Shown here: positions 33,505-64,000 of the stretch, piece after piece
How the letters are laid out: each line of letters starts with the position of its first letter
How positions within the stretch are numbered: position 1 is the first letter of the stretch
Source of the DNA: Phlyctochytrium arcticum
Lineage: Eukaryota > Chytridiomycota > Chytridiomycetes > Chytridiales > Chytridiaceae
DNA: 64,000 nucleotides
Reading direction: 5' to 3'
NCBI GenBank assembly: GCA_025602905.1
Contig: JAHLKI010000018.1
Location: forward strand, 62,001-126,000
Notes under the pieces: model-generated
The model's database searches: none
The model's input: the letters and a program-made list of their open reading frames with translations, nothing else
What the model was told of the DNA's origin: nothing
Program-made: the position numbers and the translations under genes

Positions 33505-33554
<50 letters not shown>

Positions 33555-46347: not shown

Positions 46348-47242
46348 TGTTTCATCCAGAAGCACAAAGTTAAAAAAAATGTCTTTGAACAAATGTTTTC
46401 TTTACCCTACGGGAAACATGTGTAATTGCCGATGGATGCTGTTTACTTTTTGAAGCTGGCTGTTCATATCATCTTTTTTTCTTACTCTACAAGAAATGCA
46501 GAAGACATGAAATCCATCAATGAATGCATGGATGCTATGCAAAGTTCCAGCTAAATGAATTTGATACTTTACCCATACATTCACAGTTCCTGAGCAGAAA
46601 AGTTACCGCAATGCATGCAATTCAATGCTTTCTGTGCGTGTCTGTGTACTATACTACTTTATTGCTAGCTTGCAATCCTATTCATTCTGTACCTTTCCTG
46701 CTTGATGTTTGCCCGCATTCTTTGCTTTACTTCCCTCCCTGCCTGGCTTTGCACTGCATTTCTCTATTTTGCCATTCCCCTTTCTGTTATTAAGCTCCTT
46801 CGCTTTCCCTTTATTCAATGTACTTCCACTATTCAACATTTTTTAACATGTTTGCTTGCAGCCCCCCCCCCCCCCCTCTCTTACCTCATTACCTCAGGCA
46901 AGATATACAACATGCAATAAAATACCTGCCAAAACTGGCGAGACTGCTTCCTTCTCCACATCATCTTACTTTTGCATGCGTGCTTTTCTCTTTCTTCTTT
47001 CTTACCATCCAGGTCACACTTAGGACATGCAAGGCATGAGAGCTTCAAAAATGCCTACAAATTTTGCGTACTTTTTGATATCATCTTACTTCTGGCTTTT
47101 CTCATCTTGAAACTCTTATGACATGCAATCTATCACAGACCAAGCATGCATTGATGGAAATTCCACTGCCCTGTTCATCTTACACTTTCATGAAGTACTT
47201 ACTCTTATCACTTTTTCATGTTACAATACAAATGAAGGGTGC
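46348..47242. other. Non-coding region with poly-C tract
   Basis: 895 bp without supported genes. It contains a 17-base poly-C run (46862-46878) and a copy near 46679-46715 of CTTTCCTGCTTGATGTTTGC, which also occurs near 45482-45510 on the other side of the foldback element. Confidence 0.55.
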
Positions 47243-47288
47243 TGTTGTAGTGCAGAACCTATAGCACTATAGGTTCTGCACTATAACA
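47243..47288. repeat. 46-bp palindrome, left terminal repeat of the virus-like element
   Basis: Two 22-bp arms (47243-47264 and 47267-47288) are inverted copies with one mismatch, separated by CA. Each arm reads TGTTRTAGTGCAGAACCTAT plus AG. The right half (47265-47288) is repeated exactly and in direct orientation at 53154-53177. Confidence 0.9.
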
Positions 47289-47291
47289 GCC

Positions 47292-47380
47292 CCAATAGTG
47301 GACTGGGCAATATTCGAGACCCAATAGTGGAAGGTCGCTTTTCATTAACCAATAGTGGAAAATTGGAGAACCAATAGTGG
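47292..47380 (+). repeat. Four CCAATAGTGG iterons
   Basis: Exact 10-bp copies at 47292-47301, 47321-47330, 47349-47358 and 47371-47380, in direct orientation and spaced 29, 28 and 22 bp apart, directly inside the terminal palindrome. Regular direct repeats next to a terminus are typical of replication-protein or transposase binding sites. Confidence 0.85.
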
Positions 47381-47583
47381 GCGGCGCAAGCGGGCCCGCA
47401 TTCAAACCACAATACAAGCCTACGGTATTCAAGCTTATGGTATAGTTGCATGGTCATACTACTCAAAAACTATTGATAGGATCGGTATGAACTGCCCTCA
47501 CATTACTGTCGATTCTATTGTCTCGTATTAGCTTCTCCTATGGGTCGTGAGTACGGAAAAGCTCTTTTTTCAATTTTTTGAAT

Positions 47584-47642
47584 TTGGTGGTCAAACCACC
47601 AACAAAATTTGGTCACGTGATACTTGGTGGTCAAACCACCAA
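47584..47642. repeat. Two perfect TTGGTGG-TCAAA-CCACCAA palindromes
   Basis: Identical 19-bp palindromes (7-bp arms, 5-bp loop) at 47584-47602 and 47624-47642, separated by a segment containing the symmetrical CACGTG. Confidence 0.9.
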
Positions 47643-47825
47643 CAACATTTTGACTTGTACTGTGACATTTGAGACTCATGTGTACATAGTACTATGTTCA
47701 TCTCTATCTCTCTACGTCTCTCTACAACTCCAATCGAGTGGGGAAACTCTGCCCCAAACTCTGCCCCAAGGATTCGCTTCCCTGAGAGAATTTTTCAAGT
47801 TGGGGCAGAGTTGAGGTTCAACTTT

Positions 47826-48115
47826 GCCCCAACTTTGCCCCAAGCCATTTCGTGCAGGGAAGCAAATTGCTCTTTTTGAAACGAGTGGGGAAGAGTGTTT
47901 CTTTTCTTTGGGGTCAAGTTTAAGCTATTTTTTAATTAATCTGTTTTTTTTTTTTACTTAGGTGGTCAGCTCGCCACCACCTCAACTACTTGATTTCCTC
48001 ATCACACAAAAATACAGCTCAACTCTGCCCCAAAGATTTGAAACACTGTTCCCCACTCGTTTTAAAAAGAGCAATTTGCTTCCCTGCACGAAATGCCTTG
48101 GGGCAAAGTTGGGGC
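47826..48115. repeat. 76-bp inverted repeat able to form a long hairpin
   Basis: Arms 47826-47901 and 48040-48115 are reverse complements with only about three mismatches and enclose a 138-bp loop that contains a poly-T run. Around the arms, short words of the type AACTCTGCCCCAA and their inverse TTGGGGCAGAG recur many times between 47745 and 48195. Confidence 0.9.
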
Positions 48116-48227
48116 AGAGTTGCTTCACAAATTTTACCATTTCTCTTCCCCACACGAAACCTTGGGGTCGACTTGAAAATGCCAACTCTGCCCCAATACT
48201 GATTCATCACCCATTCTTCTCCGACTC

Positions 48228-49130
48228 TTATATCATTCGTGGGTGATTCTCATTTGATTCTACCCTGCCTCGAAGACACTCTACTATGTCATAGATGGCC
48301 GTGCTCCGTTTGTAGAACAACTTCTGATCTCTGTTTTCCTTGATCTGCCGTGTTATCTCCTCTATGTGATTCGGACTTGTATCTTCTTCAAAGTAGATTG
48401 CAATGGAGGAGTCGTTTGTTGAATATGGGGGTAGATCATTCTTCATAGTCATCTTCAAAGGTCTAAACGATCTCTGTATCACCAACACCTTGTCGGAATA
48501 TTTCGATGCCCATCTGAAATGTTTGATAGCTAGGATTTTCTGGTCTGCTAATCTGGTGTCTAGTTTTACCCTTGGTGGTGAAACTCCTTTTTCAAATATA
48601 GTAAAGAACGCATCGTATTTAAATACCTTCTTAGTGGCGTACTTGTGAAAAGACTTTGACGGGAGCAGTCTCTTGTGAGCAACCTTCATTCCAGGGAAGT
48701 CTCTGACTGTAGCTCGGTGTGGAAGAATCATGCAAATCGTCTCGGGTTCATACTCTTTCACAGCATGTTGAATGAAACGCACAGCAGTCATACATGAACT
48801 GCCGAAGGGTGGGTTAAATCCTACTGCTACTCTCGTCATATCAGCGTCTCTTGTTGCCTTTAGGAAATCCATCTGAATCACGTCTGAATACAAATCTGAT
48901 GCTGGGTATAAGTCATACGATACATAATTGATGTTTGGTAACAGTTGCTTCAATTTGAATACTAGGTAACCGTCCCCTGCACTAGAGTCAATGAAATGAG
49001 TTATATTCTTTTCGGTTAACAGTGGAACAATCTCATTCACCAACTCATCAATGAGACTCTTGTTTGTGTAGAACTGTTCACGCGACTCAAGCGCAACGAG
49101 CTTTCGTTTCTCAAATGACATTCTTTTCAT
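48228..49130 (-). CDS. N6-adenine-type DNA methyltransferase of the virus-like element
   Basis: 300 codons from the ATG at 49128-49130. A SAM-binding motif near residues 46-57 (FIDSSAGDGYLV) with a following acidic strand (VSYDLYPASD) and the catalytic motif FNPPFG near 105-110 define an amino-methyltransferase of the N6-adenine class ([DN]PP[YF]). Blocks further on (ICMILPHRA, KYDAFFTIFEKG) fit the substrate-side strands of such enzymes. Methyltransferases of this kind occur as accessory genes in Polinton-like viruses and giant viruses. It is the last gene of the minus-strand cluster, ahead of the repeat-rich terminal region, and has no introns. Confidence 0.75.
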   Translation of the reverse strand: MKRMSFEKRKLVALESREQFYTNKSLIDELVNEIVPLLTEKNITHFIDSSAGDGYLVFKLKQLLPNINYVSYDLYPASDLYSDVIQMDFLKATRDADMTRVAVGFNPPFGSSCMTAVRFIQHAVKEYEPETICMILPHRATVRDFPGMKVAHKRLLPSKSFHKYATKKVFKYDAFFTIFEKGVSPPRVKLDTRLADQKILAIKHFRWASKYSDKVLVIQRSFRPLKMTMKNDLPPYSTNDSSIAIYFEEDTSPNHIEEITRQIKENRDQKLFYKRSTAIYDIVECLRGRVESNENHPRMI

Positions 49131-49156
49131 CAAGACAATGAAATAATTGCCACAGA

Positions 49157-49432
49157 CTACTCGTCTTCATCGCTATCGGATACGGCAACACGGCGAGTTA
49201 CAGCCTTGGTTTTTTTCTTGAAGTTGCTCTTATACTTCTTGCTCAATTCATCCAGTTTAATTGTCGCCTCAAGACTCTTGATCGTCTCTGTGTTAATAAG
49301 ATCACCCAATTCTTCCAAATCCTTTAGATATGATCTCTTCTGTTCTGGTGATTGAAGTTTGCTGAAATCCTTCACCAATCGATAATGAACATGAGAAAGT
49401 GGGCTCTCGTATTCATTATCTCTTCTAAACAT
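49157..49432 (-). CDS. Small charged protein of the virus-like element
   Basis: 91 codons with an ATG start, between the methyltransferase (24 bp away) and the integrase (61 bp). Predicted mostly helical (LKDLEELGDLINTETIKSLEATIKL), with a Lys-rich segment (KKYKSNFKKKTKAVTRR) and an acidic end (DSDEDE). No family recognised. Spacing suggests it belongs to the same cluster. Confidence 0.55.
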   Translation of the reverse strand: MFRRDNEYESPLSHVHYRLVKDFSKLQSPEQKRSYLKDLEELGDLINTETIKSLEATIKLDELSKKYKSNFKKKTKAVTRRVAVSDSDEDE

Positions 49433-49493
49433 TGAGCTTTTCTTTGTAAACTAGTAAAAAATAGTTTGTATCTCTTTTTTTTTAATTTGAACT

Positions 49494-50780
49494 CTACTCA
49501 ACATTCCGTTCATAATCTTCTACCGATTCTCTTGCATTGATGATGACTTGGCTTCTATTTTCCCAAGTGGCATCTGAGACAGGGTAGCCTGTCCATTCAA
49601 CCAGAACCTGTTTCACTCGACGACCATTGACTCGTTTGATTCTAGAGTCAAGTATTCGCTCCGCCTCAAACACGTCTGAATCGTCATCGTCATCGTTATC
49701 GTTATCGTCATCGTCATTTTCATTTGATGCTTGAGGAGTGGTAGGGGTAGAGGCAGCTTCATCTCTCGTCCCTTCGGGTACCAATCTTAACATGTACGCT
49801 GCAAAGAGTCCTCTAACTTCCTCGTTGTTTTCCAAGTCAAGCAACTTATACCCATCCTGATACTGGGCATATTTGCTTGGTATTCTGTCTATCACTCTGT
49901 AAATCTTTGCACCGAAATACCCTGTCCTCGACCGCTTTAAAAGACCCGTATCCTTGACAGTAATATAACGACGCACCTTGTCTCCAATCTTAAACGTCTT
50001 CAATTTGCCAGAGCTACCCTTGTTTCTATCAGAACGTTGAGCTTCTGATATTTCTTGTGCATTCTCTTTGATGTACTGCGGTGTCCTCGGTTTACGACCG
50101 GCACCAAAAGATATGGTAGTGTTAATAGACTCAATCACATTAGGTAGGATTTGGACCCAGTTCTTGTTGAAATTGGCGCCCATATACAAGGCTCGTTTGA
50201 GCGTCTGATTCATACGCTCCACTATCCCATTGAACCAAGGGGATTGAGGTTTGCTCGTCCGCCAAACGATGCCGTATTCCTCACCAAAATTCTGCGTATC
50301 AGCACCAACGTCTTCAGTTCCATTGTCGCTTTGTATCGACTTGATTTCTACCCCCGAGTCAATCATTGACTGGAGCAATGCAATAACGCCGCGTGTGTTC
50401 ACCCGTTTCAAGGGACGGGCATAGACTTTCTTGGTTAGAATATCAACGGCTACTACTATTGCCATGTAGCCGTTGAATGGCCGCATAAATGTGCAGTCCA
50501 GTTGAAAATGACCCTCCTCCTTCGATAGAATTGGCCTCACCATTCCCCGTTGCGTGTGAGGTCTTGAGAAGCGTTGATACACTGTCTGTTTTTTTAGGAA
50601 ATCTTCAAGTAACGTTCTCTGACTCAGTTTTGAGTTGGGGTATTTTTGCTTGTAGAGGAAATACAGACGATCTCTTCCCATCAATGCTGCTCCATTGGTA
50701 TACATGTCGAGTAGTTGATCATAGTCTTGCTGTCTGATGGGCTTCCAGTAACGAGCTACCTCATCCTCATTGCTGTCCAT
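49494..50780 (-). CDS. Retroviral-type integrase with C-terminal chromodomain
   Basis: 428 aa, single exon. The RNase-H-fold DDE core has Asp95 (HFQLDCTFM), Asp152 (IQSDNGTE) and Glu188 (GIVERMNQTLKR), with the spacing usual for Polinton/Maverick and Ty3-type integrases. Downstream, KIGDKVRRYITVK and YQDGYKLLDL form an SH3-like segment. After an Asp-rich linker (~345-365), the chromodomain (about 368-425) reads ILDSRIKRVNGRRVKQVLVEWTGY, then TWENRSQV. Such chromodomains read methylated histone H3 tails and steer insertion toward heterochromatin in chromoviruses. All catalytic residues are intact. Confidence 0.92.
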   Translation of the reverse strand: MDSNEDEVARYWKPIRQQDYDQLLDMYTNGAALMGRDRLYFLYKQKYPNSKLSQRTLLEDFLKKQTVYQRFSRPHTQRGMVRPILSKEEGHFQLDCTFMRPFNGYMAIVVAVDILTKKVYARPLKRVNTRGVIALLQSMIDSGVEIKSIQSDNGTEDVGADTQNFGEEYGIVWRTSKPQSPWFNGIVERMNQTLKRALYMGANFNKNWVQILPNVIESINTTISFGAGRKPRTPQYIKENAQEISEAQRSDRNKGSSGKLKTFKIGDKVRRYITVKDTGLLKRSRTGYFGAKIYRVIDRIPSKYAQYQDGYKLLDLENNEEVRGLFAAYMLRLVPEGTRDEAASTPTTPQASNENDDDDNDNDDDDDSDVFEAERILDSRIKRVNGRRVKQVLVEWTGYPVSDATWENRSQVIINARESVEDYERNVE

Positions 50781-50791
50781 ATTCTGTCTTA

Positions 50792-51562
50792 TTATAAATC
50801 ATCTTTTTCTTTTTTGCTCGATTGTGTTACTAGAGTTGCGGATTTGCCTCTAACGAATACTTCCTCATTTCGCAAAGCTTTCACATCTATGTAAAGAAAA
50901 GTGTAAGGCTCTTTGGTGTATTCATTCGCCATCTCTACAAACTCTTTGTTCGACAAATGACATCTCAGCTCAGGGGCAATCTTTTCCTGTTGCGCATCGT
51001 TCAGCCGGTATAGAATCGCATGAGTAGCATTGACTCGCTGTAATGGGGTACATTGGAGAGTATCGTGAAATGAGACGCAAATGGACATACCATTGTGACG
51101 GGCTGTTGAATACAGAATGTCTACCATCTGTTTGAATCCACTCGATACTTTCTCTTCATGTTGCAAAGGATTGTCGAGGGGTGTACCAGTTTGACGAGCT
51201 AATATTCCGTAGTCGTCAATGATGAGCAACATGTGGTTCTTGTCTTTGTCTTTTTGGTATATCTTCTTTTGCTTTTCAAAGAGATTGTTGAGAATATGAT
51301 TCGAGATTGTTTGTGAAGTATACACATTATTATATCTCTTAAGCGCCGTCCAACTCACATCGTCAATACTAGGGGAATACACGACGATATTCCGATAAGT
51401 ATGGGCAACCTTCTTGATCAGATTGATGATACATGTTGTCTTGCCGCTCCTAGACGAACCGATACATGAAAGCGTGAAGAATTTGCGTGGATAACCAGGG
51501 GGTGCTGCGTCTACGATCTTTTGCCTGTACTGTTTCGGAATGGAGACCTTCTCTACGTTCAT
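50792..51562 (-). CDS. FtsK/HerA (A32-like) genome-packaging ATPase
   Basis: 256 aa from an ATG at 51560-51562, 11 bp before the integrase. Walker A is GSSRSGKTT (residues ~35-43); Walker B is MLLIIDDYG with Asp115/Asp116; a sensor-like segment STARHNGMSICVSFHD follows. The order and the short length are those of packaging ATPases in Polintons, virophages and Polinton-like viruses rather than cellular FtsK. In virions it pumps DNA into capsids, so its presence marks the element as virus-derived. It is divergent from the capsid-side genes across ~49 bp. Confidence 0.9.
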   Translation of the reverse strand: MNVEKVSIPKQYRQKIVDAAPPGYPRKFFTLSCIGSSRSGKTTCIINLIKKVAHTYRNIVVYSPSIDDVSWTALKRYNNVYTSQTISNHILNNLFEKQKKIYQKDKDKNHMLLIIDDYGILARQTGTPLDNPLQHEEKVSSGFKQMVDILYSTARHNGMSICVSFHDTLQCTPLQRVNATHAILYRLNDAQQEKIAPELRCHLSNKEFVEMANEYTKEPYTFLYIDVKALRNEEVFVRGKSATLVTQSSKKEKDDL

Positions 51563-51611
51563 TACGATAGCTTTTTCTTATTATCTATGGTATAATAAAA
51601 GGCAAGCAAAC

Positions 51612-52353
51612 ATGTATAGACAGTTGGTACTGAATACGGCCATCCTTAGTTCGTTGCAAAACAGTTTCCAAATTTTACCCCTGACGATCCACGCGTTTCG
51701 TATCAAAGCATTCTCTTTCATTCAATCTTGGGACAGCATCTCGATTGAACTGAACAACAACAAGATCGTGATCCAAGAGGCAAACGACACCCCCATCACC
51801 ATAACACTACCCGATGGTGTGTACGACGTGTCTACAATTTGCACGGCCTTGTCGCAACTTTTGACCTCGAATACCACCCAGCCGTATTCAGCAACGTATG
51901 ATCAAGTAACCCGCAGAATCTCACTTAGTACAACTGGACCAAAGAACTTCAAGGTGCTGGGAAGGCAACAAGGGAGTACAGCATACTATCAATTGGGTAA
52001 CATAGATGATACAGTTTCCGCAAAGACTGTTACGTTTGCTAATCCAGTGAATCTCAGTGCCAGTCGGCCAATTCTCCTGACGAGTCGAACATTCTCTTCC
52101 AATGGATCCATTCTCTACCCTGCAGGCATTGAGAGCAATCAGAACATTCTCGCCTGTATTCAGCCTGTTTTCAGATATTGTAACATGGGCCAATCCGTCT
52201 GACAAGTTTGTCATTCTCCCAAACGCAATTACACCAAGTTCAATAGACTACAGTATAGTAGATACAACATCGTTTCGTACAATCAAAATGACCCAACCGA
52301 GTGTACTAACCATCGGAATTCTGGATGATTATAATGACATTTTGAACCTATGA
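51612..52353 (+). pseudogene. Candidate minor capsid (penton-like) gene, frameshifted
   Basis: An ATG at 51612 opens a 196-codon frame to a stop at 52200-52202. The coding character then continues in a second frame (52102-52353) up to a TGA, so the reading frame appears to have shifted around 52140-52190. The first part is beta-rich and carries ITITLPDGVYDVSTICTALS, a segment like those in Polinton/PLV minor capsid proteins (a strand followed by a 'DG.Y....L..L' helix). The end of the second part (LTIGILDDYNDILNL) resembles the C-terminal strand of that fold. Assignment rests on such motifs and position beside the ATPase; it is not proven. Confidence 0.5.
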
Positions 52354-52381
52354 AAAATTTTCTATTATTCAACAAGTAACA

Positions 52382-52902
52382 ATGTCTGAACAACAAACAA
52401 CAAAAGAAACTCCAATTCAAGCCGACGAAGCTGTTGATTCAAGTAGTGAACAAAGTATTGAACAAATAGAAACCAATAGCAGCACAGATCCTTTGACAAA
52501 GTTGTCAATGCAGTCAAGAGCAAAAAGAAAGAACGAACTCCAAAACAGCTGGAGAATATAAAAAAAGCTCAGGCCAAGCGCACCGAGAACTTGCGAGAGA
52601 TGAAGAAGTTAAAAGAACAGCATGACAAGGAGAAAGAGAGTGCTAGGCTATTGAAGCAACAAGAACGTGACGAAGAGATTGCCAGGAAGGCTATTGAGTA
52701 ATATATAGCAGCCAATAAGCCAAAACGAACTACCTCAAAAAAAGTCAATGTCTGCAAACAACAGCAAGGTTACGCCAAAGAGACAGCCAACACCAAAACT
52801 ACCATCACCTTCAACAAAGAAAATGGTTTTTGATTTTGATTCATATGATGAATATTATGAGCCACCAAATGCGGCATTTTCACACATCTTTGGCAGACGT
52901 TA
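52382..52902 (+). pseudogene. Coiled-coil, Lys-rich virion-type gene with two frameshifts
   Basis: An ATG at 52382 starts an acidic Gln/Glu/Ser-rich segment (MSEQQTTKETPIQ). At about 52495 the coding character moves to another frame with a strongly charged helix (LREMKKLKEQHDKEKESARL) ending in a stop near 52698. From about 52740 a third frame codes a basic Pro/Ser-rich tail ending in HIFGRR and a stop at 52900-52902. Both shifts lie in or near A-rich runs. It sits between the two capsid-type genes, a usual place for small DNA-binding virion proteins in such elements; function is inferred only. Confidence 0.4.
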
Positions 52903-52938
52903 GATGCTCATTTTTTTTTGAATACCATAGAATAAGTT

Positions 52939-53175
52939 ATGTCGAATCTCTTAGTAAACCCTCGTTTCCCTGCAAACTGGAGTTATCAGCAGGAGAACTT
53001 TCTTGTTCATGCTGATCCATTAAGTCAAAATTTTCACACATTCCGACCTATGAAGGAAACGTTCGATTCTCGTTCGTCAGGCTCTAACATTGTGATTCCT
53101 ATTGATAGCGTATCTTCGTATTTGCGTCCCCAACAAGGATTCCTCTCTGGTACCACTATAGGTTCTGCACTATAA
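52939..53175 (+). pseudogene. Amputated candidate major capsid protein gene
   Basis: An ATG at 52939 begins a frame coding ~72 virus-like residues (MSNLLVNPRFPANWSYQQEN to SYLRPQQGFLSG). It then runs directly into the terminal repeat at 53154, where the last seven codons and stop are repeat sequence. The N-terminal segment (SGSNIVIPIDSVSSYL) looks like the entry strand of a jelly-roll capsid protein. More than 80% of a usual major capsid protein is missing, so the gene is non-functional. The capsid identity is inferred from position after the minor capsid and small virion genes. Confidence 0.45.
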
Positions 53176-53177
53176 CA
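53154..53177. repeat. Right copy of the terminal repeat
   Basis: 24 bp identical to 47265-47288, starting CACTATAGGTTCTGCAC. It forms the inverted partner of the outermost left arm (47243-47264) and lies at the break in the capsid gene. Confidence 0.9.
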
Positions 53178-53185
53178 CATTCCGA

Positions 53186-54610
53186 CTACACGAACAGATG
53201 ACCGCGTTGGCAAAGTTTATCTTCCACCTCCAGCAATGATCGGAAACTCGCCCTGCATTCCCCGTTCTTCGATCTGCAAAGATGACCGCAAATACCCTCT
53301 GGGTGCAGCGCACAGTCCCAAAACTCCAAGGTCACAATACGATCATCCCAACTGTAGGTTACTTGACCACCATTCCAGCAATCGTCCGTGAGATCGTCTG
53401 TTGCACCGATGATTCCGGGGGTAATAAAGACAAAGTTGAGGAGTAGATGATTCGTATCGTCAAATTATTGCAATTTAATATTCCTGCATATATACGTATT
53501 CAGCAAAAGTTTGTTGTCGAAAGTATCCATCTTCGAGTTTGACCTTACCATGTGGTTGGTTTTTGGGTCTTTGAACAGAAATTTGGTCCAAAGCCTGGGT
53601 TTCCGCCAGTACGTTGTTGTTTCACTGTTCGACAATGATTGATCAGCAACAAACCAATATTACCCGTACTTCTCAGGACAACCTTACCTGCTCATCTTTG
53701 CTTCGGATTGCGAGCGAAGTCTTTAAAGCAGATACCAAGGACGCAAACACTAGAGCGGCTCGACGACTGTTCCACACCGTCGGTTCAGACAATTAACAAG
53801 TCCATCGTCGTGTTCCGTTCCTGCAATGTTGGCCAAATTGTGATACAGTAACCCGGTGCAATAACTGGCACCGTAATTTGACTCTGTGAAAATCTCGATG
53901 AGGACAAGCTTGTGCCTCCGTCCAAACTTGACCCAACCGCATTGAACAGGGGCTTAGCATACGCAAATCGTCGCAATATGGTGTGACATGCCGGCCGAAG
54001 GCAAATATAATGCACTCCTCCTGAGATCGGAAAATGTCCATTAGCAACTTGTTACGAATGGCCCTAGGCGCACTTTGTGCAGAGCAGCCACGCAAAGTAC
54101 GCTGAGTGACCAATCGACAGGCTGCACTGTGCCGGCAACAATGAACATAATACGGTCGCATCAAGGTTGATATCTTCGCTGAGCCAAATTGATGAAGTCC
54201 AGGTAGAAGAGTTTTGTTGCCGGATGTCTCACCGAGCTTGTAATCCCCAATGTCGACCACTCAACTCTCGTAAGTGAAATGCCTTGGAACCAGCCATATT
54301 GGATGTGATTGTTGGCGGATAGTTGGTAGCTTTGCTCCAACCTAGTCATTAGGCAGACTGCAGACTTGATCAGGACGTTGCTCAGTTGTGATTGCAGCAT
54401 GCAACCCATTGGTTGCGGCAACATCATTTTTGTTCCTTCCATCCGTGACATCAATTGCAATATCGACCATCTGAGTAATGATCATTTGCTGAGGAAGCAT
54501 CGACATTGGGAACGGCTGAAGTCTCATGGACGACCGTGTCCACTGTGGAATAGCTAACGGTCTCCGATGCAGCTGAGATCCCCTTCTCCTGGCTGTATCG
54601 GGCGACATTC
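53186..54610 (-). pseudogene. Fragmentary minus-strand coding remnant next to the virus-like element
   Basis: Minus-strand frames with protein-like composition occur in pieces: a Cys/Trp-containing segment ending at a stop at 53186-53188 (including FVFITPGIIGATDDLTDDCW), another around 53800-54015 (SQITVPVIAPGYCITIWP), and others at 53793-54260 and 54342-54608 (MVDIAIDVTDGRNKND). They cannot be joined with clear GT-AG introns in one frame. It may be a decayed host gene in which the virus-like element landed, or just chance. Confidence 0.25.
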
Positions 54611-56560
54611 CTCTTCCTTTTTCCTTTCCTGCATCAAGTAGCAGCAGGGGTGCAAGTAATTCCGGGAGCGATGTGCGGCAAGATGTTCGGGGACTCAGGT
54701 AATTCCTAATATGTTGCAGACAAGAATAGACTCGACGACAAGGCGAGATGACTGAAAGCGATCGCTTTTAGCGTCTACTGACAGTATTCTACCTCTCGTC
54801 AATCCCTTCGTCAATCCTATGCTGGAAGATGGCATGGCACGATGATTTGGCGTGTGGCCGATTGCAAACCTTCCTTCTCCCTCCTACAAGTCCAATTTCT
54901 ATTCCCGAAAGTTACATTTTTCCCTGTATGCAGCGCGTGCAAAACAAGAGGACACAACAGGAAATGTCCAAAGAACGCATGACTTCAGTTAGATGTCCGG
55001 GCTTGACTCATCCCTGAGGAGTCCAACTATATCGGACCCATATGTCAAGCTTTGAATCGTTCTGATTTTCCTGATCGGCCTAATCTCCAGAACAAAGATT
55101 GTTTTTGGTAATTTTATGGGGTTTGATTCTGTTCAACTTTTGGAACTCAGTTTGGAACTCTATCAAAGTTTAGTGTCTATGGCAACCAGCCCGTGCGGAG
55201 CGCGACAGGAGCGCGACAAAATCCCAATTCCAATCTCGCTAATTCCTTTCGGATCGGTTTGCAGTGGCAGTGGTTTCTTGCGCAACTCCCTTGTTATATG
55301 TAGAACGCCTGTTCAGCTGACTGGGAGGGTGTTAGGCATATGGCACCAGCCAGTGCTCAGAGTGCAGGAAACCATGCTGACCTGCCCTTGCAGAACTCCC
55401 TTGTCATATGTAGAACGCCTGTTCAAGCTGACTGGGAGGGTGTCAGGCACATGGCACCAGCCAGTGCTCAGACTGTGAGGGATAACAGGTCGGCAACGAA
55501 ACCTTCATGAGCTCTTAGAAACGGTGGGCCTGATTCCAGCTCACATATTCTTATCTATATACTAACACGAACTCCAGTGGAACCGACTGCTGTCCCCTTT
55601 TCTTTACTAAAGGACTGGACCATTTACTGGCATCTTTCTACATTTCGAGAATTCATAGGTTCACTTATCTTTTGTTAGGTTATTATTCACGTGGCAGCAG
55701 ACTGCTGGATCGTTTTTGGTAAGCGGCTAACTTTATTGTGTTTGTCAACTCGATCTAAACTTGTTTGCAGGGATGCGCGGCGTTTGTCTTCGGTTTCGGC
55801 TGGCATCTATTTGGTTCCTTCACAACTCCCTTGTTATGTATAGAACGCCTGTTCAGCTGACTGGGAGGGTATCAGACCAGCCAGCCCCTAGCCTATGAGG
55901 AGCACAGGTTGGCGAAGGAGATTCTGAAGCTGGTTTACGTGTGAGTACACATTCGTCCTAGCTTTCATTTTCGCTCTGAAACTAATATTCTGGTTTGATA
56001 TATTTTGATGCGCTTGCGTGGCCATATGTAGTATTGAATATGTTTACACAGTACCGCAAATTCTTCGATTTTACCATTGTGCCTTGTAGACAAATAGCTC
56101 ATTGACCTAAGTCCTTTCTGTCTTGTATTCGAACAATGCACTGTCCCGTATTTTGGCTTCCGAGCAGTGCGTCCTTGTATCGTTTTTATAGTGATCAGGA
56201 GGAGGAAATAATCTGTTGGAACTCATACAGAACGTGGGACACACGACATGGTGATGAACGGTTATGATGAACCACAGTACGCAATGAAAAATGTGACGAA
56301 AAACAGAATCATACATCGAAAATGACGATGAATCATAACAGAATACTCAGAACAGAAAAGGTGCTGCTTAAATCTACATGATAGAGTTCATCTGCAACTT
56401 GCTTCAGATCCACTCGAGGTCAACATCGCGGCGCGAACGTCATCGACTGGTTTTGAAATTGGAACACTTCCCACCAGCACGGCGCTTCGTCTAACAAGAC
56501 GTGAAAGTCAATAGACTGCTAAGCTTGCAAAACGGCGCTTGAAGCTGAAGCTCTCCACCG
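54611..56560. other. Non-coding region with repeated ~90-bp unit
   Basis: No supported gene over nearly 2 kb. The recognisable content is three copies of one unit at 55282-55890 (separate entry). Confidence 0.5.
55282..55890 (+). repeat. Three copies of a ~75-90-bp repeat
   Basis: The words AACTCCCTTGT, ATGTAGAACGCCTGTTCA, GCTGACTGGGAGGGTGT and CACCAGCCAGTGCTCAGA recur at 55282-55373, 55393-55483 and, shortened, 55818-55890, in direct orientation. The first two are spaced 111 bp apart. No coding sequence is present. Confidence 0.75.
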
Positions 56561-56652
56561 GTCGAGTTTCGTAGATCATTGCGTGATAGCGGTGGCAGTT
56601 TTGACAATGGTAAAAGGTTGCTTGTAGGGTCGGTGGTGCTGATAACAATTGG

Positions 56653-57102
56653 TCAACGACAAAGACGAGTTGCTGATAAAAAGTCAACAGTTGCGGGAAG
56701 GGTTAATGCAAAGCTAATAACATCTCCCATATTCACAGCATCATACCCTTGTTTCAGTAGTTCAGGCTCCTTTATCGACTTCGTCAACCGCACAGGCAGC
56801 TTGTTGACCGATTCATCCTTCGATACTACGAAGGGGCTTTGATGCATGGCACACAACTTCTTACTCCGAGCGGCTTTGTGCATTTCGATAGCGTCTTCGG
56901 GCACTTCGGACGTGAAGCAGTGGGTAGAGTAGCCACCGGTGGGATCACGGAGAGGTTGAGCGGAGTCAGAGGACCATGTTTCTGGCCAATCGCGGAAAGC
57001 TGGGCAGACCAAAGGCCAAGGGGTGCGTTTGGAGACTAGAAAAAAGGTTATCACAGGCAGAAACTTCCTCCGTAATTGAGGCGATACCTTCTCATCCAGC
57101 AA
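56653..57102 (-). CDS. Possible coding segment reaching into the left inverted arm
   Basis: 149-codon open frame; residues ~60-149 have ordinary protein composition (for example PEDAIEMHKAARSKKLCAMH and LTKSIKEPELLKQGYDAVN), unlike random sequence. A 52-bp intron-like gap (gtatcg...tttctag) lies within it near 57035-57088. I could not build a consistent gene model. Part of it is duplicated in the right arm. Unrecognised; may be a fragment of a host gene or of the long-repeat element. Confidence 0.25.
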   Translation of the reverse strand: MLDEKVSPQLRRKFLPVITFFLVSKRTPWPLVCPAFRDWPETWSSDSAQPLRDPTGGYSTHCFTSEVPEDAIEMHKAARSKKLCAMHQSPFVVSKDESVNKLPVRLTKSIKEPELLKQGYDAVNMGDVISFALTLPATVDFLSATRLCR

Positions 57103-57816
57103 ATCAATCCTTCTTCCCGTCTTTCTCCAAAACAGCCTAAGTCGCTCAAAGCGGCTACATGGTACATACCACTTCCACCTCCTGGTCCACCTCTCATTAG
57201 CCTGGTCTTAGTCTCCATCTCCCGCATATTCTCTTGTGGGCTCTTGAGGGATGAGTCGTGCGGGCCCCGGAGCTTTCAGAGTTGATATATCCACTAGTAA
57301 GGAGTGTTAAAGTGGAATATGACATGAAAGAGGGATGAACCTTCACTCACTGTAATAATAGTGATCATGGGAGACAATCACAATACCGTCACTATCTCGA
57401 TGGGTGGTGAACTTGCATAGGGTGGAGGTATGGACCGATTTCCGCTGTGATGTTGAACGTATACTACGGCAGTTTGGGATCCAGTGATGGTTGATAAAGC
57501 ATTGGAGACGACATGCTTTACCAGTGAGGCATAGTGATCAGGAAACATTTTGGGCACTCCCGTCCTATGTACATCCGCACATTGCAACAACACATACATG
57601 CAAACCAAGCGGACCAGACTGCAAAATCGCTATGTTGCCTGCATCGTGACCTTCTCCATGCCCCACCCAATGGCTTTCCGATCCATCTAGTCAGTTATTG
57701 GGCGGGAAGTTGCCGATCGCACCGTGCGCGGGTGTGATTGACTGAAAGGGTCTTGACTCTTGAGTGAAGAAGGCCAGGAATTGATGAAGCTGTGCTGTTT
57801 GAAAAGACCGGTCGGC
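56936..57816. repeat. Left arm of a long inverted repeat
   Basis: About 880 bp repeated in inverted orientation, with essentially no differences seen, at 63118-64000. The inner boundary is sharp: homology stops after GACCGGTCGGC (57806-57816). The outer boundary is not determined, because the right arm runs off the window. Three ORFs in this arm are identical to their counterparts in the right arm. Confidence 0.92.
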
Positions 57817-58122
57817 GATATTTACAGTAGTGAATGACTGCGTTGGGGCAGTCTATATGTTGTATAAAAAGTTGAACACGTATGTACTAACATGTAACTC
57901 TTGAAACTAATGCTCAAATCCTATTCTTTTCAGCTCAACTGACGTCCCCTTCCCAAATCGTTGACATATACATTTCAACCCTCTCTCATTTTCTCCGTCT
58001 TCTCTCGATCATGGCAAGGGTGTGATCTGCTGGAGCCAAGAAATTGAAACTGCCGATCAAAACCTCTGTAGTTTGAGCGTCCATTGGTGAGTGTAGCGAC
58101 TATGCCATATTGTCAGGATTAC

Positions 58123-61100
58123 TTATGACTCGCTGGAAGGCTTTGACTTATTTGAAGGAGTGAGAAACTCTGGTTCCATGGCCCATTTGATCCGCGGGCC
58201 GGCTACCACCAACGACGCACTAGCGTGCTTGGCCGCGGCTTCGTATAGCATTACTTGTCTCCGAGCCAAATTCTAAATTAAATGGTGTCAGGAAGAGCGA
58301 AGTAGCAACTCCTGCCAAATTGGGGGAGCGTCTCGGGCGAGGTAATATCCGGTTCCAATCGCTCGCCGGGGGGAGACAACCAAGCCACCTCCGGACCGAC
58401 AGCTCGGTAACAACGTCCAGACCAAGGAATTCGAAATACAAGTTCACAACATATATTGCCAACCAAAAAAGTTTAAACTATCTATTCGCTCTTCTATCTT
58501 CTATTTCTAGTGCCATTTCCAAACTTGGGTTGTAGTCTGACTAGTATAGCCTTCTAATTGAGCTAAGAATCGTTCCATCATCGCTTCAAAAATGGGGTTT
58601 GCTTCAAGGTGGTCCTCGAGCTTGAAATGGAAGCTTTGAAGTTGCTCCACAGCTGCCTTTACGCGGGTTTTGCGGTGGTTCTTCTTGACCTGCGCCGGAG
58701 TCACCACAATTTCCCTGACAGGCGCCGTTCCTCGGCCCCAATAAAGCTCAAATCCCGATTCTTCAAATCTCCAATAAACCTTTCCCACGCGGCGTCGGTG
58801 AAAGTGGTCTCCTCCGCGCACATGTCTTGGTGAAAGAGATGGACACACGGGAGCATATACTGGCGGGAAAACATGCAATTGCAGTCGAGGTTGTCGATTT
58901 GGGGCACTGGCTTACCCTTTTCGATGCGAACGGCGACCATCATAATCTGATCGACCACAAGACGTTGTAATGGATGCGGTAACTTTGCTAGAGCAGGATA
59001 CTGGGCAGTGTGAGTCAAGCGCTTACGGCGGAACGTGTAATCTTGCTGTGCCGCGTTTTTAGCGTAGCGCTCGTTGACATTCACAATAGTTTTGACCGCC
59101 CCACAATGTGTAGCAGTTGGCTTGCCAACATCCTTTAATTGCTTGTGGTAGGACTCGAGAGCGTTGGTCGACGTTATCTGCAGAAGCACTGGCGAATGCT
59201 GCCTTGCACCCATCGACCAACATTCAAGATGATCCATGTTGGTCCAGTTTCTTTTAAGATATGTCGCCATGTGTGCAGGAGCTCCGGCGATTGCTTCGTC
59301 GACCAATTGACGGCAACCGAGGCGGGTCCTCTTATTAAGAGCATGCATCATCTTGGCGTATGTCGCACGGTGACTGGTCAAATGCTTCATAAACGTACGC
59401 ATGACGTGAACCTGGAATAGTGAGCGTCAGTCTCTCTCCTCGTTAGCCTCTTTCCTGAATGCCACATTAAACAAGGAAAAAGCATGCCAAACCTTGCAAT
59501 AATAAATACGGGGTGTTTCTTCACCAGCTGCCATGCCTGGAAAAGCCTTCCGGATGCCAAGGTTCTCAATATGAGATTGGTCAATCATCACATTGTTTGG
59601 AATCCACTTCTTTCCAGTTTCAGCGAGAACAAGATTTCGCAAGGCATTAAGCCCAGAGTACACACCCTCGCCGTTTTCACGCTGAGCAAAAAATTGTCCG
59701 GCTGGAACCCAAGACCCTGTTTTATTCCGCACCATGCACGTAAATAGCCTCCAGTCCCAGCGGTTCGTCTTGTGGGTGGAATCCATCAACACAAGATAAC
59801 TACATTCCTGCAGTACCTTCAATTCTTCTTTTCTGCCAAATGCTAATCCTTCAGTGGCACCAATTTCGTCAGTAGGGGCAACAAGAAAGCGCTGGGTGAC
59901 ATATCCAGCCTTTTGTAGTTCTTGTTCTGCCTCAACTACATCTGGATCCTGAATTTGCGATTCGGGGTTTGTTTTGAATTCAGGGTCTCTTCTTTTGGCA
60001 TTCCAGACAGTTTTAGCTGTCAAAAGATCGACACCCAGTGTCGCGAAATATTGTGGGTCAAATTCCTTGGCAACCATTACAGGTAAGACGCCTGCGATTT
60101 CCTTGGACTGGTAGGGCTTGAAAGCCTCGCTATTGATGATCTCCTGTGCAGCAGCGCATATTTTGCGTCGATCGACGTCTTCCAATGTATGGTGTAAGTG
60201 CTTTGTTCCATACTGCGGCTGAAGGTCGACCGAAACCATGGCGGTCTGAGTATCCTCCACAACGCGCAATCTAACGGGACAATCTATAGGAATGTGAGTC
60301 GAAGTTACTCGTCTCTTGATTGAGCCAGTATCATCTTCACGGGGTCCCGAAGAATGAGGCTGTCGCTTCGCTGCCATTCGACAGGTGTATATTGTCGTGA
60401 CTTTAACGGACCTTCTCGTGCCGGCTGATGCTTTCTTGTTGAGTCTAGTCCACATGTTATCCGCCACTTGCCACTGCTCATCAAACTCTTTCTTGGTCAG
60501 TGTAAACTTTGCAGCCGGTTGGTAAAGTCGTTCTCGGACTTCTTTGAGGAGTAAACTGGACTGGGTCATTTTCTGGAAACAATTGGTTAAATAACAGACC
60601 AAAGGCATGTGTTGCTGTAACGTTACCTATGCACAGGACTATTGGCGAATTGTACAATTGCGGTGTATCGTGAGATCTTGGCAATGTGTGTCGGAGTCGC
60701 TTCGCGCACTCTGAAATTCGCGCACTTTGAAATTTTCGTTTGTTTAGATCTGACCGAGAGGTCGGCTTGTCTCCCGGCGATTGGAACCGGATATTACCTC
60801 GCCCGAGACGCTCCCCAAATTGGGTCGGCGCTGACTTACCTTCATCTTAAGCATCAAAGTGGCTATAGACACCACTTTCCCAGCGTCTGACATGGTCTGC
60901 GGAAGTGTTTGCGCAGCCAACGGAAACTCCAAATAGTAGCCGTTGCCGATGTATAGCATGATGACTGGTTCGATTAGATCGGCAGTTGTAAAGAAGCCGA
61001 TGGTTGGCAGAAATCGGATTCCTTCCAGCGTGTCAGCATGGAGACTGCCATTCCCCGCCTTTGCCAAGGATCCGATTAAAGCACTGAGCTGGTCTCTCAA

Positions 61101-62632
61101 TGTTTTGGCTTCCTTCAATTTGGTCGCCACGCACTTTGGCGTATTATCCGTTTCGTGACCTGCACGCTCACTCGAGCCGAACTCTGTACCCCATTTTGTC
61201 GCCTCATTTTTCGCCACCTTGCGGTTCGAGAATATCCAATCCAGATGGTGCCCATCCGTTCTCCCGTTTGCATCAATGGCTGACTTGCGCCTGGTGCGCG
61301 AAGCTCTACTGATACCCTCACCGAAATGTCGGTCGTAGACGCCCTTGAAGACCTTGAACAGAGGGTGCATGAATGCAACCTCCCCGTCGCGCTCAGTGTT
61401 GTCGCGGGCCGAATACTCATCTTCGACAACCTCGCGCCACATCATCAAGACTCCCGAAATGAATGCAACATCTTTATGCAGGTAGTCATCCGCCTGCGGG
61501 GAATATTTGGATTCCCCAACGGACGGCTCTAGCAGCTGGAATTCGGCATCCAACGTTTCCATCTTCGACTTTTTTCCCTTAGTAGCTACACTCTCAATCA
61601 GGCCTTGTGTGCCCTTGAGGACGGCCGTTCTTGCCGCTTCAAAAATATCGTCATCCGACAAACAACCTAGAGCATCGAGAAGCCCCTTTGCCTCGCGAGA
61701 CATGTTCTCAAATCCACTCTTATCCAGCAATTCTCGCACGCGAGCTCGGAGTGCCGCCTCGAGCTCGACAGACAAAGGACCCCGCACTTTGTCCACCGCA
61801 TCGTCCAAATTGACGATACCCCAAGCCAGACGACTGGCCGCAATCGTATCAATTTTGTTATGTGCCGCAGCTCTCCCAGCAGGCTTTGCCGCGACAAATG
61901 CTTTTTTTGCTTCATCAAATGTCTTCAAGACTTGGTCTCGCAGATCATCCAGCTCAACAAGATTCGGAATTCCCAAGAAAGGCCCGTCTACCCCACTTAT
62001 TCGCGGGAGACCGGAAGGAACCTGGGGATCTGGCTCTGCATTGTTCCGCGCTGGGAGATCAATAGGATCAGAGGAAATATCCCACTCCACGCAGTCGCCC
62101 ATCCCATCGTCATGCTCCGGGTTCATCTCACAAGGCGGACCTTGATTAGCGGAGTCTCTTGCGACCTTTTCATAATACGCAACACGCTCTTTGTTCGTAA
62201 AGTAAAACGATCGAAAGCGCTTCCTGTCATTCCAATAGTTCCGTCGAAGCTTTCTCACAACTTTGGCCAACAATACCTCTCCAAGCCCGTCCAGCCATTC
62301 CGACAAAAGCCAAAAGGCGTCATTGATATTCTGGATGTGCTCATCGGCGGACTGAGCGAACAGAAGATCTAAGCTGATCCCGGCCTCTTTTCTAATCAGT
62401 GCAAATAGCGATGCTCCAGCGTCCGTCTTCGGCAACAAGCCAATTTTTACAAACTCGAAAAGCCGTTCCTTCGTCACGAAATGGACCTATCAAAAGTTTG
62501 GATCAACATCGTCTCTCTTGTAGGAGATGACCGAGCTGTTGCACTTACCGGCCAGTTTTGGGGTTTCACCTGCTTTCGTCTCTCGTTCTCAACGACGTCG
62601 GTCCCATCTCGTGATCTTTTCATACTTTGCAT
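58123..62632 (-). CDS. 626-aa protein with possible PD-(D/E)XK nuclease-like domain; intron holds MULE-2
   Basis: Model: complement(58123..58272, 60840..62486, 62549..62632), all exons in phase 0. Donors are GTAAGT and acceptors TTGATAG and TAATTTAG. Intron 2 is 2,567 bp and contains MULE-2; without MULE-2 and one target copy it is 67 bp. The protein starts MQSMKRSRDGTDV with an Arg/Lys-rich segment and has a long helical middle (FDEAKKAFVAAKPAGR, LEAALRARVRELLDKSG). From about residue 439 it reads DGHHLDWIFSNRK, then KWGTEFGSSE: an Asp followed by an E-x-G-type strand, as in restriction-endonuclease-like folds seen in fungal proteins. TLPQTM and LARRQVMLYEAAAKHA follow near the end. Function is not known; nuclease-like character is inference. 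Confidence 0.65.
58324..60815 (-). mobile_element. MULE-2, Mutator-like element in an intron
   Basis: 2,492-bp element with 39-bp perfect terminal repeats (58324-58362 and 60777-60815, starting GGGAGCGTCTCGGGCGAGGT), followed by weaker homology. It is flanked by the 8-bp direct repeat CAAATTGG (58316-58323 and 60816-60823). It carries one transposase gene on the same strand as the host gene. Terminal repeats and target duplication are unlike those of MULE-1, so it is a different family. Confidence 0.9.
58507..60569 (-). pseudogene. MULE transposase with SWIM domain, frameshifted (MULE-2)
   Basis: Exon 1 runs from the ATG at 60567-60569 to 59493 and joins exon 2 (from 59411) through a GT-AG intron, giving YYCKVHVMRTFMKHL across the junction. 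Blocks: a Cys/His/basic DNA-binding region (VTTIYTCRMAAK, HIPIDCPVRLRVV); the DDE core with Asp in LVLMDSTHKTNRWDW and Asp in NNVMIDQSHIENLGIRKAFP, Glu in STNALESYHKQLK; and the SWIM zinc motif CNCMFSRQYMLPCVHLFH. After FTDAAWERF (near 58785) the frame ends at a nearby stop, while the expected continuation (RFEESGFELYWGRG) is in another frame down to 58507. The C-terminal frameshift suggests loss of function. Confidence 0.75.
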
Positions 62633-63117
62633 GATGATCTCAAAACAGTCTACCAAGATAGCGTTGTATTCACAAAACAACGGTAGACAGGACAAGTAGA
62701 CGCTAGAAATGGACGGACGTCGGACGAAATGGACGAAACACGTAGATGGAAGACGTAGACGGAAGAAAATGGAGGAAACAAGTAGATGGGATACGTGGAA
62801 TAAGGACTCGGGGTATTGAGCAGGTATCAATTATTCCGATAGCCTCACTGCAAAGTTACTGAACAGAGAAGGATGCACTATTCTCCTGGAAGGATGCGAG
62901 ACTTAAATGAACGAGGGGCCGAAGAGCAGATGATTTGGGGATGGGATGCAACGTTGTGGGGTGAGTAGCTCAAAGTGTTGATCAAGTGACGATAATGCGT
63001 AACTCTTGAAAGGGTTTATCTACGCGCACTGCAACTATGGCAACCGCGCTGTGGAAATAACACAGCCACCCGAGCGGACTGAAAGTTTGTCAACTTTTGA
63101 CTGCACCAGCTCCGTAG
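62633..63117. promoter_or_regulatory. Upstream region of the 626-aa gene
   Basis: 485 bp between the start of the gene and the right arm. On the gene's strand, 62700-62800 is pyrimidine-rich with repeated TCCATCTACGT and TTCGTCCATTT-type words, compatible with a fungal CT-rich promoter. No other feature seen. Confidence 0.4.
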
Positions 63118-64000
63118 GCCGACCGGTCTTTTCAAACAGCACAGCTTCATCAATTCCTGGCCTTCTTCACTCAAGAGTCAAGACCCTTTCAGTCAATCAC
63201 ACCCGCGCACGGTGCGATCGGCAACTTCCCGCCCAATAACTGACTAGATGGATCGGAAAGCCATTGGGTGGGGCATGGAGAAGGTCACGATGCAGGCAAC
63301 ATAGCGATTTTGCAGTCTGGTCCGCTTGGTTTGCATGTATGTGTTGTTGCAATGTGCGGATGTACATAGGACGGGAGTGCCCAAAATGTTTCCTGATCAC
63401 TATGCCTCACTGGTAAAGCATGTCGTCTCCAATGCTTTATCAACCATCACTGGATCCCAAACTGCCGTAGTATACGTTCAACATCACAGCGGAAATCGGT
63501 CCATACCTCCACCCTATGCAAGTTCACCACCCATCGAGATAGTGACGGTATTGTGATTGTCTCCCATGATCACTATTATTACAGTGAGTGAAGGTTCATC
63601 CCTCTTTCATGTCATATTCCACTTTAACACTCCTTACTAGTGGATATATCAACTCTGAAAGCTCCGGGGCCCGCACGACTCATCCCTCAAGAGCCCACAA
63701 GAGAATATGCGGGAGATGGAGACTAAGACCAGGCTAATGAGAGGTGGACCAGGAGGTGGAAGTGGTATGTACCATGTAGCCGCTTTGAGCGACTTAGGCT
63801 GTTTTGGAGAAAGACGGGAAGAAGGATTGATTTGCTGGATGAGAAGGTATCGCCTCAATTACGGAGGAAGTTTCTGCCTGTGATAACCTTTTTTCTAGTC
63901 TCCAAACGCACCCCTTGGCCTTTGGTCTGCCCAGCTTTCCGCGATTGGCCAGAAACATGGTCCTCTGACTCCGCTCAACCTCTCCGTGATCCCACCGGTG
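63118..64000. repeat. Right arm of the long inverted repeat (runs off the window)
   Basis: Reverse complement of 56936-57816. It starts at GCCGACCGGTC (63118) and stays aligned up to the last base of the window (CACCGGTG corresponds to about 56936-56943 inverted). It contains plus-strand ORFs identical to the minus-strand ORFs of the left arm, among them one coding MFPDHYASLVKHVVSNALST (from about 63383), for which I found no family. Confidence 0.92.

Follow-up and report, generated by a model that had tools for sequence, protein, structure and literature searches.

What is the small cluster of virus-like genes at positions 47243-53177 of a 64,000-nucleotide stretch of the genome of the chytrid Phlyctochytrium arcticum (GCA_025602905.1, contig JAHLKI010000018.1), and how did it come to lie in a fungal chromosome? 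An earlier note, made from the letters of this stretch (the window, C18:62001-126000; C1, C4, C9, C10 and similar labels denote contigs of the same 31.5-Mb, 91-contig assembly), had proposed that it is a virus genome of the Polinton or Polinton-like type, integrated and partly deleted, and the genes, ends and copies bear this out. With a probability of about 95%, the cluster is an integrated, decayed Polinton-like virus (PLV), as indicated by its gene set, by its terminal palindromes, and by 5-bp target site duplications (TSDs) at two loci of the family to which the window copy belongs (the window family).

A passage of PMC10640383 states that no double-stranded DNA virus infecting fungi was known as of 2023, and a passage of PMC10120064 describes a broad survey of endogenous PLVs, across 1,352 genomes, that left out fungi. 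Among four publications naming P. arcticum, no title concerns viruses of fungi. The statement of the earlier note that such elements are rarely described in fungi needs qualifying: PLV genes of the chytrid Spizellomyces punctatus and of Allomyces macrogynus were reported in 2021 (Bellas and Sommaruga; excerpt of PMC7805220). According to that excerpt, those PLVs are likewise integrated in zoosporic fungi and carry major capsid protein and ATPase genes, and some of the integrated elements of that study had terminal inverted repeats (TIRs) and TSDs of 5-7 bp, like those of the window family; S. punctatus had one element, compared with approximately 39 capsid loci in P. arcticum. The window element would add to the PLVs already in print from chytrids, with its hairpin-like termini seemingly the least expected part; the interest lies in copy number, in module exchange and in these terminal palindromes.

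Genes of the integrated element

Read from the left, the window copy consists of a terminal palindrome, subterminal repeats, minus-strand genes (methyltransferase-like, a 91-amino-acid open reading frame (ORF), integrase and ATPase) and a plus-strand block with genes for a penton and a small coiled-coil protein and, cut by the right terminus, the start of a capsid gene (Table 1). The integrase, with Pfam matches to rve (8.8e-12) and Chromo (1.7e-9), has the catalytic residues D95, D152 and E188 that the earlier note had described as intact, the last two at a spacing of 35 residues; in an alignment of ten integrases including this one, D152 and E188 are invariant and D95 is nearly so. The packaging ATPase, named from its Walker A and B motifs, matches Pox_A32 of Pfam (9.8e-8), with the motifs located at residues 35 and 111; the chytrid Gaertneriomyces semiglobifer has ATPase relatives that are 60% identical to it. 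The NPPF motif of the proposed methyltransferase is likewise present, and the protein matches PHROG 5172 (unknown function, 7e-13) and PHROG 799 (DNA methyltransferase, 1.3e-4), its Pfam match being below the cut-off (E value of 0.0078). In the C10 copy, a D12-class N6-adenine DNA methyltransferase gene (1.9e-30; L063:1510-2319, where L063 is a stretch of the C10 locus) lies beside the NPPF methyltransferase-like gene. Four intact proteins had been counted in the window copy; the integrase, ATPase and methyltransferase-like genes are indeed open, but there is no fourth: both the penton gene and the coiled-coil gene have frameshifts, and the capsid gene breaks off near 53150. The coiled-coil gene is open in L044 (C18:136001-146000; 168 amino acids) and in L063 (170 amino acids), and a complete relative of the capsid gene is found in the C10 copy (L063:6100-7341).

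Integrases that combine an rve domain with a chromodomain are also found in long terminal repeat retrotransposons, and the cluster might be read as cellular or retrotransposon genes, with a chromovirus-type integrase, lying together by chance. However, none of the six ORFs of the viral part has a reverse transcriptase match, C10 and C4 show the order methyltransferase-integrase-ATPase-penton-capsid again, and the palindromes lie exactly at the ends; chance association is hardly credible beside an integrated virus.

Terminal palindromes, subterminal repeats and target site duplications

The outer limits of the element, placed correctly at 47243 and 53177 by the earlier note, are the outer edges of terminal repeats. 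The terminus of the window family is a 52-bp palindrome that runs from TG to CA and reads TGTTATAGTGCAGAACCTATAGTGGTACCACTATAGGTTCTGCACTATAACA at the right end of the C9 element; the shortened version at the left end of the window copy folds as a single hairpin (z -9.2). Five full copies were read: three form perfect palindromes that vary slightly in sequence from locus to locus, and each of the other two has a single mismatched pair. Searching the genome with a 22-nucleotide half-palindrome, allowing up to 3 mismatches, located 25 sites (none with the reversed control), which make up 11 two-half palindromes (ten spanning 52 bp, and the 46-bp palindrome at the left end of the window copy) and three lone halves, in both arms of the window copy (see below) and on C11. 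A pattern that combines the subterminal motif with the start of the palindrome matched 12 sites, with no match at the C17 palindrome or the C11 half. At C4:1407293-1407344 and C18:135668-135719, viral interior sequence lies on both sides, so that two elements share one palindrome.

Four ends, including both TIRs of one element, were examined, and at each of them repeats adjoin the palindrome. CCAATAGTGG occurs in five copies at each of the three ends other than that of the window copy, against means of 0.04-0.07 in base shuffles (matches inside the palindrome being left out), and TTGGGGCAGAGTT in 9, 6, 6 and 8 matches at the four ends, against 0.01 in shuffles. TTGGTGGTCAAACCACCAA, also palindromic, has one near-copy in the neighbouring element and is missing, at up to 3 mismatches, from the outermost kilobase of either C9 end.

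The C9 element (366464-381117, 14,654 bp) has TIRs of 3258 bp that are 2 mismatches apart and contain a copy of the integrase gene. Its flanks, like those of the entire 42.3-kb complex at C18:109243-151503 that includes the window copy (flanked by GGTGC), carry a 5-bp duplication, and these are both of the cases that could be read. TG...CA ends with a short duplication fit integration of the rve type. TSDs of PLVs are approximately 4-6 bp, with 6 bp typical for rve integrases, and their TIRs hundreds to thousands of bases long, according to part of PMC12220804. The terminal palindromes of the window family look unusual. No description of palindromic or hairpin ends of PLVs was found in a literature search covering part of the matching papers, and the terms 'palindrom' and 'hairpin' are absent, by term counts, from PMC12220804 and PMC4642659.

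Capsid protein folds

The six best PDB matches of the intact C9 penton, modelled from 12 sequences (predicted local distance difference test score, pLDDT, of 72.5), are all mavirus penton (E values of 2e-9 to 1.5e-8), followed by Sputnik and the adenovirus penton base; the window ORF at 51540, which the earlier note had placed on the capsid side, is a penton gene by the fold of this relative. The intact 414-amino-acid capsid protein of C10, modelled from 7 sequences (pLDDT of 65.8), matches the double-jelly-roll capsids of mavirus, PBCV-1, iridovirus and PRD1 type (E values of 4e-11 and weaker), and the capsid remnant of the window copy belongs to the gene whose intact relative is predicted to fold in this way. 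In a large protein collection, the capsid protein has two matches only, its own record and a metagenomic protein at 42% identity; the capsid of a second lineage has a Pfam Capsid_N match below the curated cut-off (E value of 0.00046).

Since mavirus provides the closest solved folds for both modelled capsid proteins, the element might be a virophage relative (Maviroviricetes) dependent on a giant virus. Fold matches at such a distance do not separate virophages from Polintons or PLVs, because PBCV-1, iridovirus and PRD1 score nearly as well, and no cysteine protease was found among 26 proteins scanned against Pfam, a set that falls short of a complete element scanned in full. Mavirus resembles the window family in its rve integrase, but has a protein-primed DNA polymerase B (pPolB; excerpt of PMC7805220). 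A virophage affiliation is improbable.

Replication protein and classification

In the C10 and C4 copies of the window family, the capsid gene is adjoined by a gene for a helicase-like protein (DUF5906, 5.9e-15; VapE-like, 0.0012; phage primases among its PHROG matches), 95% alike between the two over the 581 residues compared (the C10 frame has 818 codons, of which L063 covers 581). We call it a D5-like helicase by these matches, a name that carries no claim of a primase domain. The Pfam family of pPolB, PF03175, has 14 matching stretches in the genome, 12 of them above the curated cut-off and several near capsid, penton and integrase matches, and none in 14 control genomes. None of the 14 lies within the four loci of the window family that were compared (C18:109-152k, C9:366-381k, C10:387-398k and C4:1370-1432k). 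A search for copies with DNA polymerase B had been suggested in the earlier note. At C3:282466-293021, C7:987073-998400 and C54:3253-13937, pPolB, integrase, capsid and penton matches lie within 10-12 kb, with an ATPase match as well at C3 and C7; these loci are apparently strict Polintons in the same chytrid genome.

An alternative is that the window element is itself a strict Polinton/Maverick, defined by pPolB together with the rve integrase, and lost the polymerase by deletion. Polintons share with the window family an rve integrase, an A32 ATPase, a penton, a double-jelly-roll capsid and TIRs, and the ATPases and capsids of the pPolB loci on C7 and C3 are akin to those of the window family (58 and 56%, and 40 and 36%, respectively). 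Yet the two better-preserved copies have the D5-like helicase next to the capsid gene, and the window integrase shares no more than 25-26% identity with those of C7 and C3, compared with approximately 37-41% for the lineage of C18:184457. Because of the helicase in these copies and the absence of pPolB from the loci of the family, the element is classed as a PLV, and its derivation from a strict Polinton is improbable; of the double name in the earlier note, the Polinton-like half stands, whereas the strict half is contradicted by the helicase of the relatives and the location of pPolB elsewhere in the genome. By the usual definitions of PLVs, as given in parts of PMC11071308 and PMC7805220, the window family fits as a PLV that kept its rve integrase. 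Tlr1 of Tetrahymena is likewise a PLV with an rve integrase and with a helicase in place of pPolB, but its helicase is of superfamily 1, whereas that of the window family is DUF5906/VapE-like (excerpt of PMC11071308).

Several points weigh against the assignment. The class was derived from gene content, folds and ends. The window copy has neither a helicase gene nor a complete capsid gene. The structural models are of middling confidence, with TM-scores of about 0.3-0.6 for the named matches, and therefore support the fold family and not a detailed relationship; the capsid and penton profiles match no PDB sequence, that of mavirus included. No relatives came up in IMG/VR for the ATPase, for its alignment or for the capsid alignment (the integrase alignment gave 5 weak loci, at 26-29% identity). 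The TSD of the C9 element, GAGAG, is weakened by its position in a GA-rich run, and 5 bp is shorter than the length typical for rve integrases cited above from PMC12220804. Finally, the inverted duplication in which the window copy lies could be an assembly error, a point taken up below.

Copies across the genome and exchange of modules

The observation of the earlier note is real, and the window copy is one of many and not a lone relic. Six-frame searches of the genome (E value of 0.001 or less) found 55 ATPase, 69 integrase, 60 penton, 41 capsid and 12 methyltransferase stretches; these are lower bounds, counted in stretches and not in genes, with broken copies counted several times, and rve elements of other kinds may be among the weakest integrase matches. 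The query for the 41 capsid stretches was the N-terminal 186 residues of the C9 capsid; they merge into 39 loci on 23 contigs, a count in which each of two loci consists of two stretches, the two arms at the window are both included, and the three weakest (E values of 1.4e-4 to 3.6e-4) may be chance matches. Open frames of at least 400 codons contain 25 of the 41, one of which has a stop marked inside the match. That the cluster is more than a chance grouping is shown by an exact inverted copy, at a distance of 20 kb on this contig, and by diverged copies on other contigs. A contaminant contig join, which the earlier note had named as a possible refutation, is unlikely given capsid matches on 23 contigs and the TSD around the C18 complex. 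With approximately 39 capsid loci, many in long open frames, the genome suggests that such viruses are active in fungi now or were so recently. Equal-scoring or nearly equal-scoring viral copies also occur on different contigs, some of them short (C23/C45/C26, C25/C54, C6/C15 and C10/C12), and may represent recent transposition, haplotigs or unresolved duplication.

The genes of the window family have different nearest relatives within the genome. Compared with the pPolB loci of C7 and C3, respectively, the identities are 58 and 56% for the ATPase (311 and 314 bits), 40 and 36% for the capsid (with the C9 N-terminal query), 45 and 46% for the penton (158 and 121 bits) and 25 and 26% for the integrase (42 and 52 bits). 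Compared with the lineage at C18:179-186k, whose member at C18:184457 has a chromodomain, they are 40% for the integrase (264 bits), 27% for the ATPase (29 bits), 23% for the capsid (29 bits) and 41%, over a shorter stretch, for the penton (87 bits), which separates the two relationships weakly. Because the integrase is closest to one group and the ATPase and capsid to the other, module swapping is suggested: elements of this genome seem to have traded capsid, integrase and replication modules, and offer a compact set in which to follow this.

The inverted duplication and its neighbours

The limits given by the earlier note are exact for the element, which is embedded in an inverted duplication reaching beyond them (Table 1). 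The 10.6-kb arms differ by 1 substitution and by indels of 6 and 22 bases. Each consists of the viral part and of 4.6 kb that is probably host DNA, judging by its occurrence in the two arms only. The right arm ends in the palindrome that it shares with a second PLV (C18:135668-151503), in which an ORF of 1895 amino acids (L044:1634-7321) is a candidate attachment protein of fibre-like type; its Pfam matches are sub-threshold (Laminin_G_3, 1.5e-4; avian adenovirus fibre N-terminus, 0.033).

Near identity of the arms is what an artefact of assembly, in place of a chromosomal rearrangement, would produce. Against this, the three differences tell the arms apart, and the order as assembled agrees with the position of GGTGC at the outer ends of the complex; other inverted viral pairs exist, though the same artefact could in principle produce them. 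We regard an artefact as unlikely, if a serious alternative to a rearranged chromosome. Counted by eye among the matches listed, inverted pairs of equal score (within 1 bit) no more than 40 kb apart occur at seven loci (C18, C9 twice, C40, C1, C24 and C30), compared with one direct pair (C36). Long TIRs, inverted dimers, recurrent rearrangement at palindromes, or assembly may lie behind such pairs.

Two other interpretations of the C18 locus were considered. The whole 26.5-kb mirror structure as one mobile element with 10.6-kb TIRs was set aside because 4.6 kb of each arm is found nowhere else in the genome and because it is the 42.3-kb complex, and not the mirror structure, that lies between the TSD copies. 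Integration as a simple head-to-head dimer is disfavoured by the presence of two half-palindrome variants, TGTTG in the outer halves and TGTTA in the inner ones, which are better explained if the palindrome of the right-hand element later received an insertion. In our reading of these variants, the second PLV would have been inserted first, and the segment with the window PLV joined later at the centre of its left palindrome. The C4 junction, which is symmetrical, is a candidate head-to-head dimer.

Proposed history and a replication model

The virus DNA presumably entered a zoosporic fungus, where the rve integrase would have processed the TG...CA ends and joined them to the chromosome with a 5-bp stagger; the chromodomain may have steered it to chromatin that bears marks. 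The capsid of intact relatives, built of the double-jelly-roll protein with penton vertices, would be filled by the A32 ATPase, and replication would probably rely on the D5-like helicase seen in the better-preserved copies, with a host polymerase as a possible partner. The window copy would then have lost the end of the capsid gene and what lay beyond (helicase and fibre side) and gained frameshifts; later still, it would have been duplicated as an inverted repeat together with the 4.6 kb of probable host DNA, with the outer breakpoints at the terminal palindrome. By itself, the window copy is unable to make particles.

The termini suggest a testable, if doubtful, model of replication. The window family may have dropped protein-primed replication and copy a hairpin-ended linear genome by its D5-type helicase, resolving head-to-head intermediates at the 52-bp palindrome; the pairs that share a palindrome (C4:1407293-1407344 and, recombined, C18:135668-135719) and the inverted copies would be frozen traces of this, and the rve integrase would insert palindrome-bounded DNA. 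A palindromic terminal sequence, as in a hairpin-ended replicon, is present in the window family. If correct, the model would place a poxvirus-like end strategy in a small integrating virus of about 15 kb or somewhat more. Poxviruses have a D5 helicase and an A32 ATPase. They also have linear DNA with inverted repeats and hairpin ends (passage of PMC8956199), a functional analogy only: the poxvirus genome is far larger, and the window family integrates.

Other features of the window

The features of the element and of the inverted duplication are collected in Table 1. The guanine-plus-cytosine (GC) content of the viral part is 41-43%, compared with 46-50% to its right; it is no marker of the left border by itself, because the 3 kb to the left are equally low (40-43%). 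Rfam and tRNA scans of the window were empty.

Table 1. Coordinates, in the window, of the PLV and of the inverted duplication around it.
Feature	Position	Strand	Remarks
TSD GGTGC, left copy	47238-47242		right copy directly after C18:151503, outside the window
Left arm of inverted duplication	47243-57816		right arm C18:125118-135719, beginning at window 63118-64000
Left terminal palindrome	47243-47288		46 bp; family form 52 bp, 6 bp gone at centre
CCAATAGTGG repeats	47292-47380	+	four copies beside the palindrome, within one mismatch
Palindromic TTGGTGGTCAAACCACCAA	47584-47642		two copies
Subterminal repeats TTGGGGCAGAGTT	47745-48196	both orientations	includes 102-nucleotide inverted repeat 47819-47920/48021-48122
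DNA-methyltransferase-like gene	48228-49133	-	open, 301 amino acids, NPPF at residue 107
91-amino-acid ORF	49157-49432	-	between methyltransferase-like gene and integrase; Pfam scan gave no assignment
rve integrase with C-terminal chromodomain	49494-50780	-	open, 428 amino acids
A32/FtsK-type genome-packaging ATPase	50792-51562	-	open, 256 amino acids
Penton (minor capsid) gene	51540-52353	+	frameshift near 52170; pieces 51540-52199 and 52102-52353
Small coiled-coil gene	52382-52903	+	frameshift and stop codon; end set by likeness to open copies
Major capsid gene, first ~70 codons	52939-53150	+	cut by right terminal half-palindrome
Right terminus	53152-53177		one exact half of the family palindrome
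Arm-only stretch, 4.6 kb	53178-57816		two genome matches, both 100%, the two arms
Spacer between arms, 5.3 kb	57817-63117		MULE-type transposase remnant 59430-60626

The MULE match in the spacer (5.2e-6) is just under the Pfam cut-off; a second MULE-type transposase remnant (7.5e-18, with a FAR1 match) lies at 13505-14677. Also in the spacer is an open frame of 580 codons (60747-62486), with no convincing match in Pfam. At 33109-35412, an open frame of 768 codons with a strong GC skew (-0.40) consists largely of degenerate 18-nucleotide repeats (ACGACCACTGTTGACCCA), and perhaps encodes a repetitive, mucin-like surface protein.

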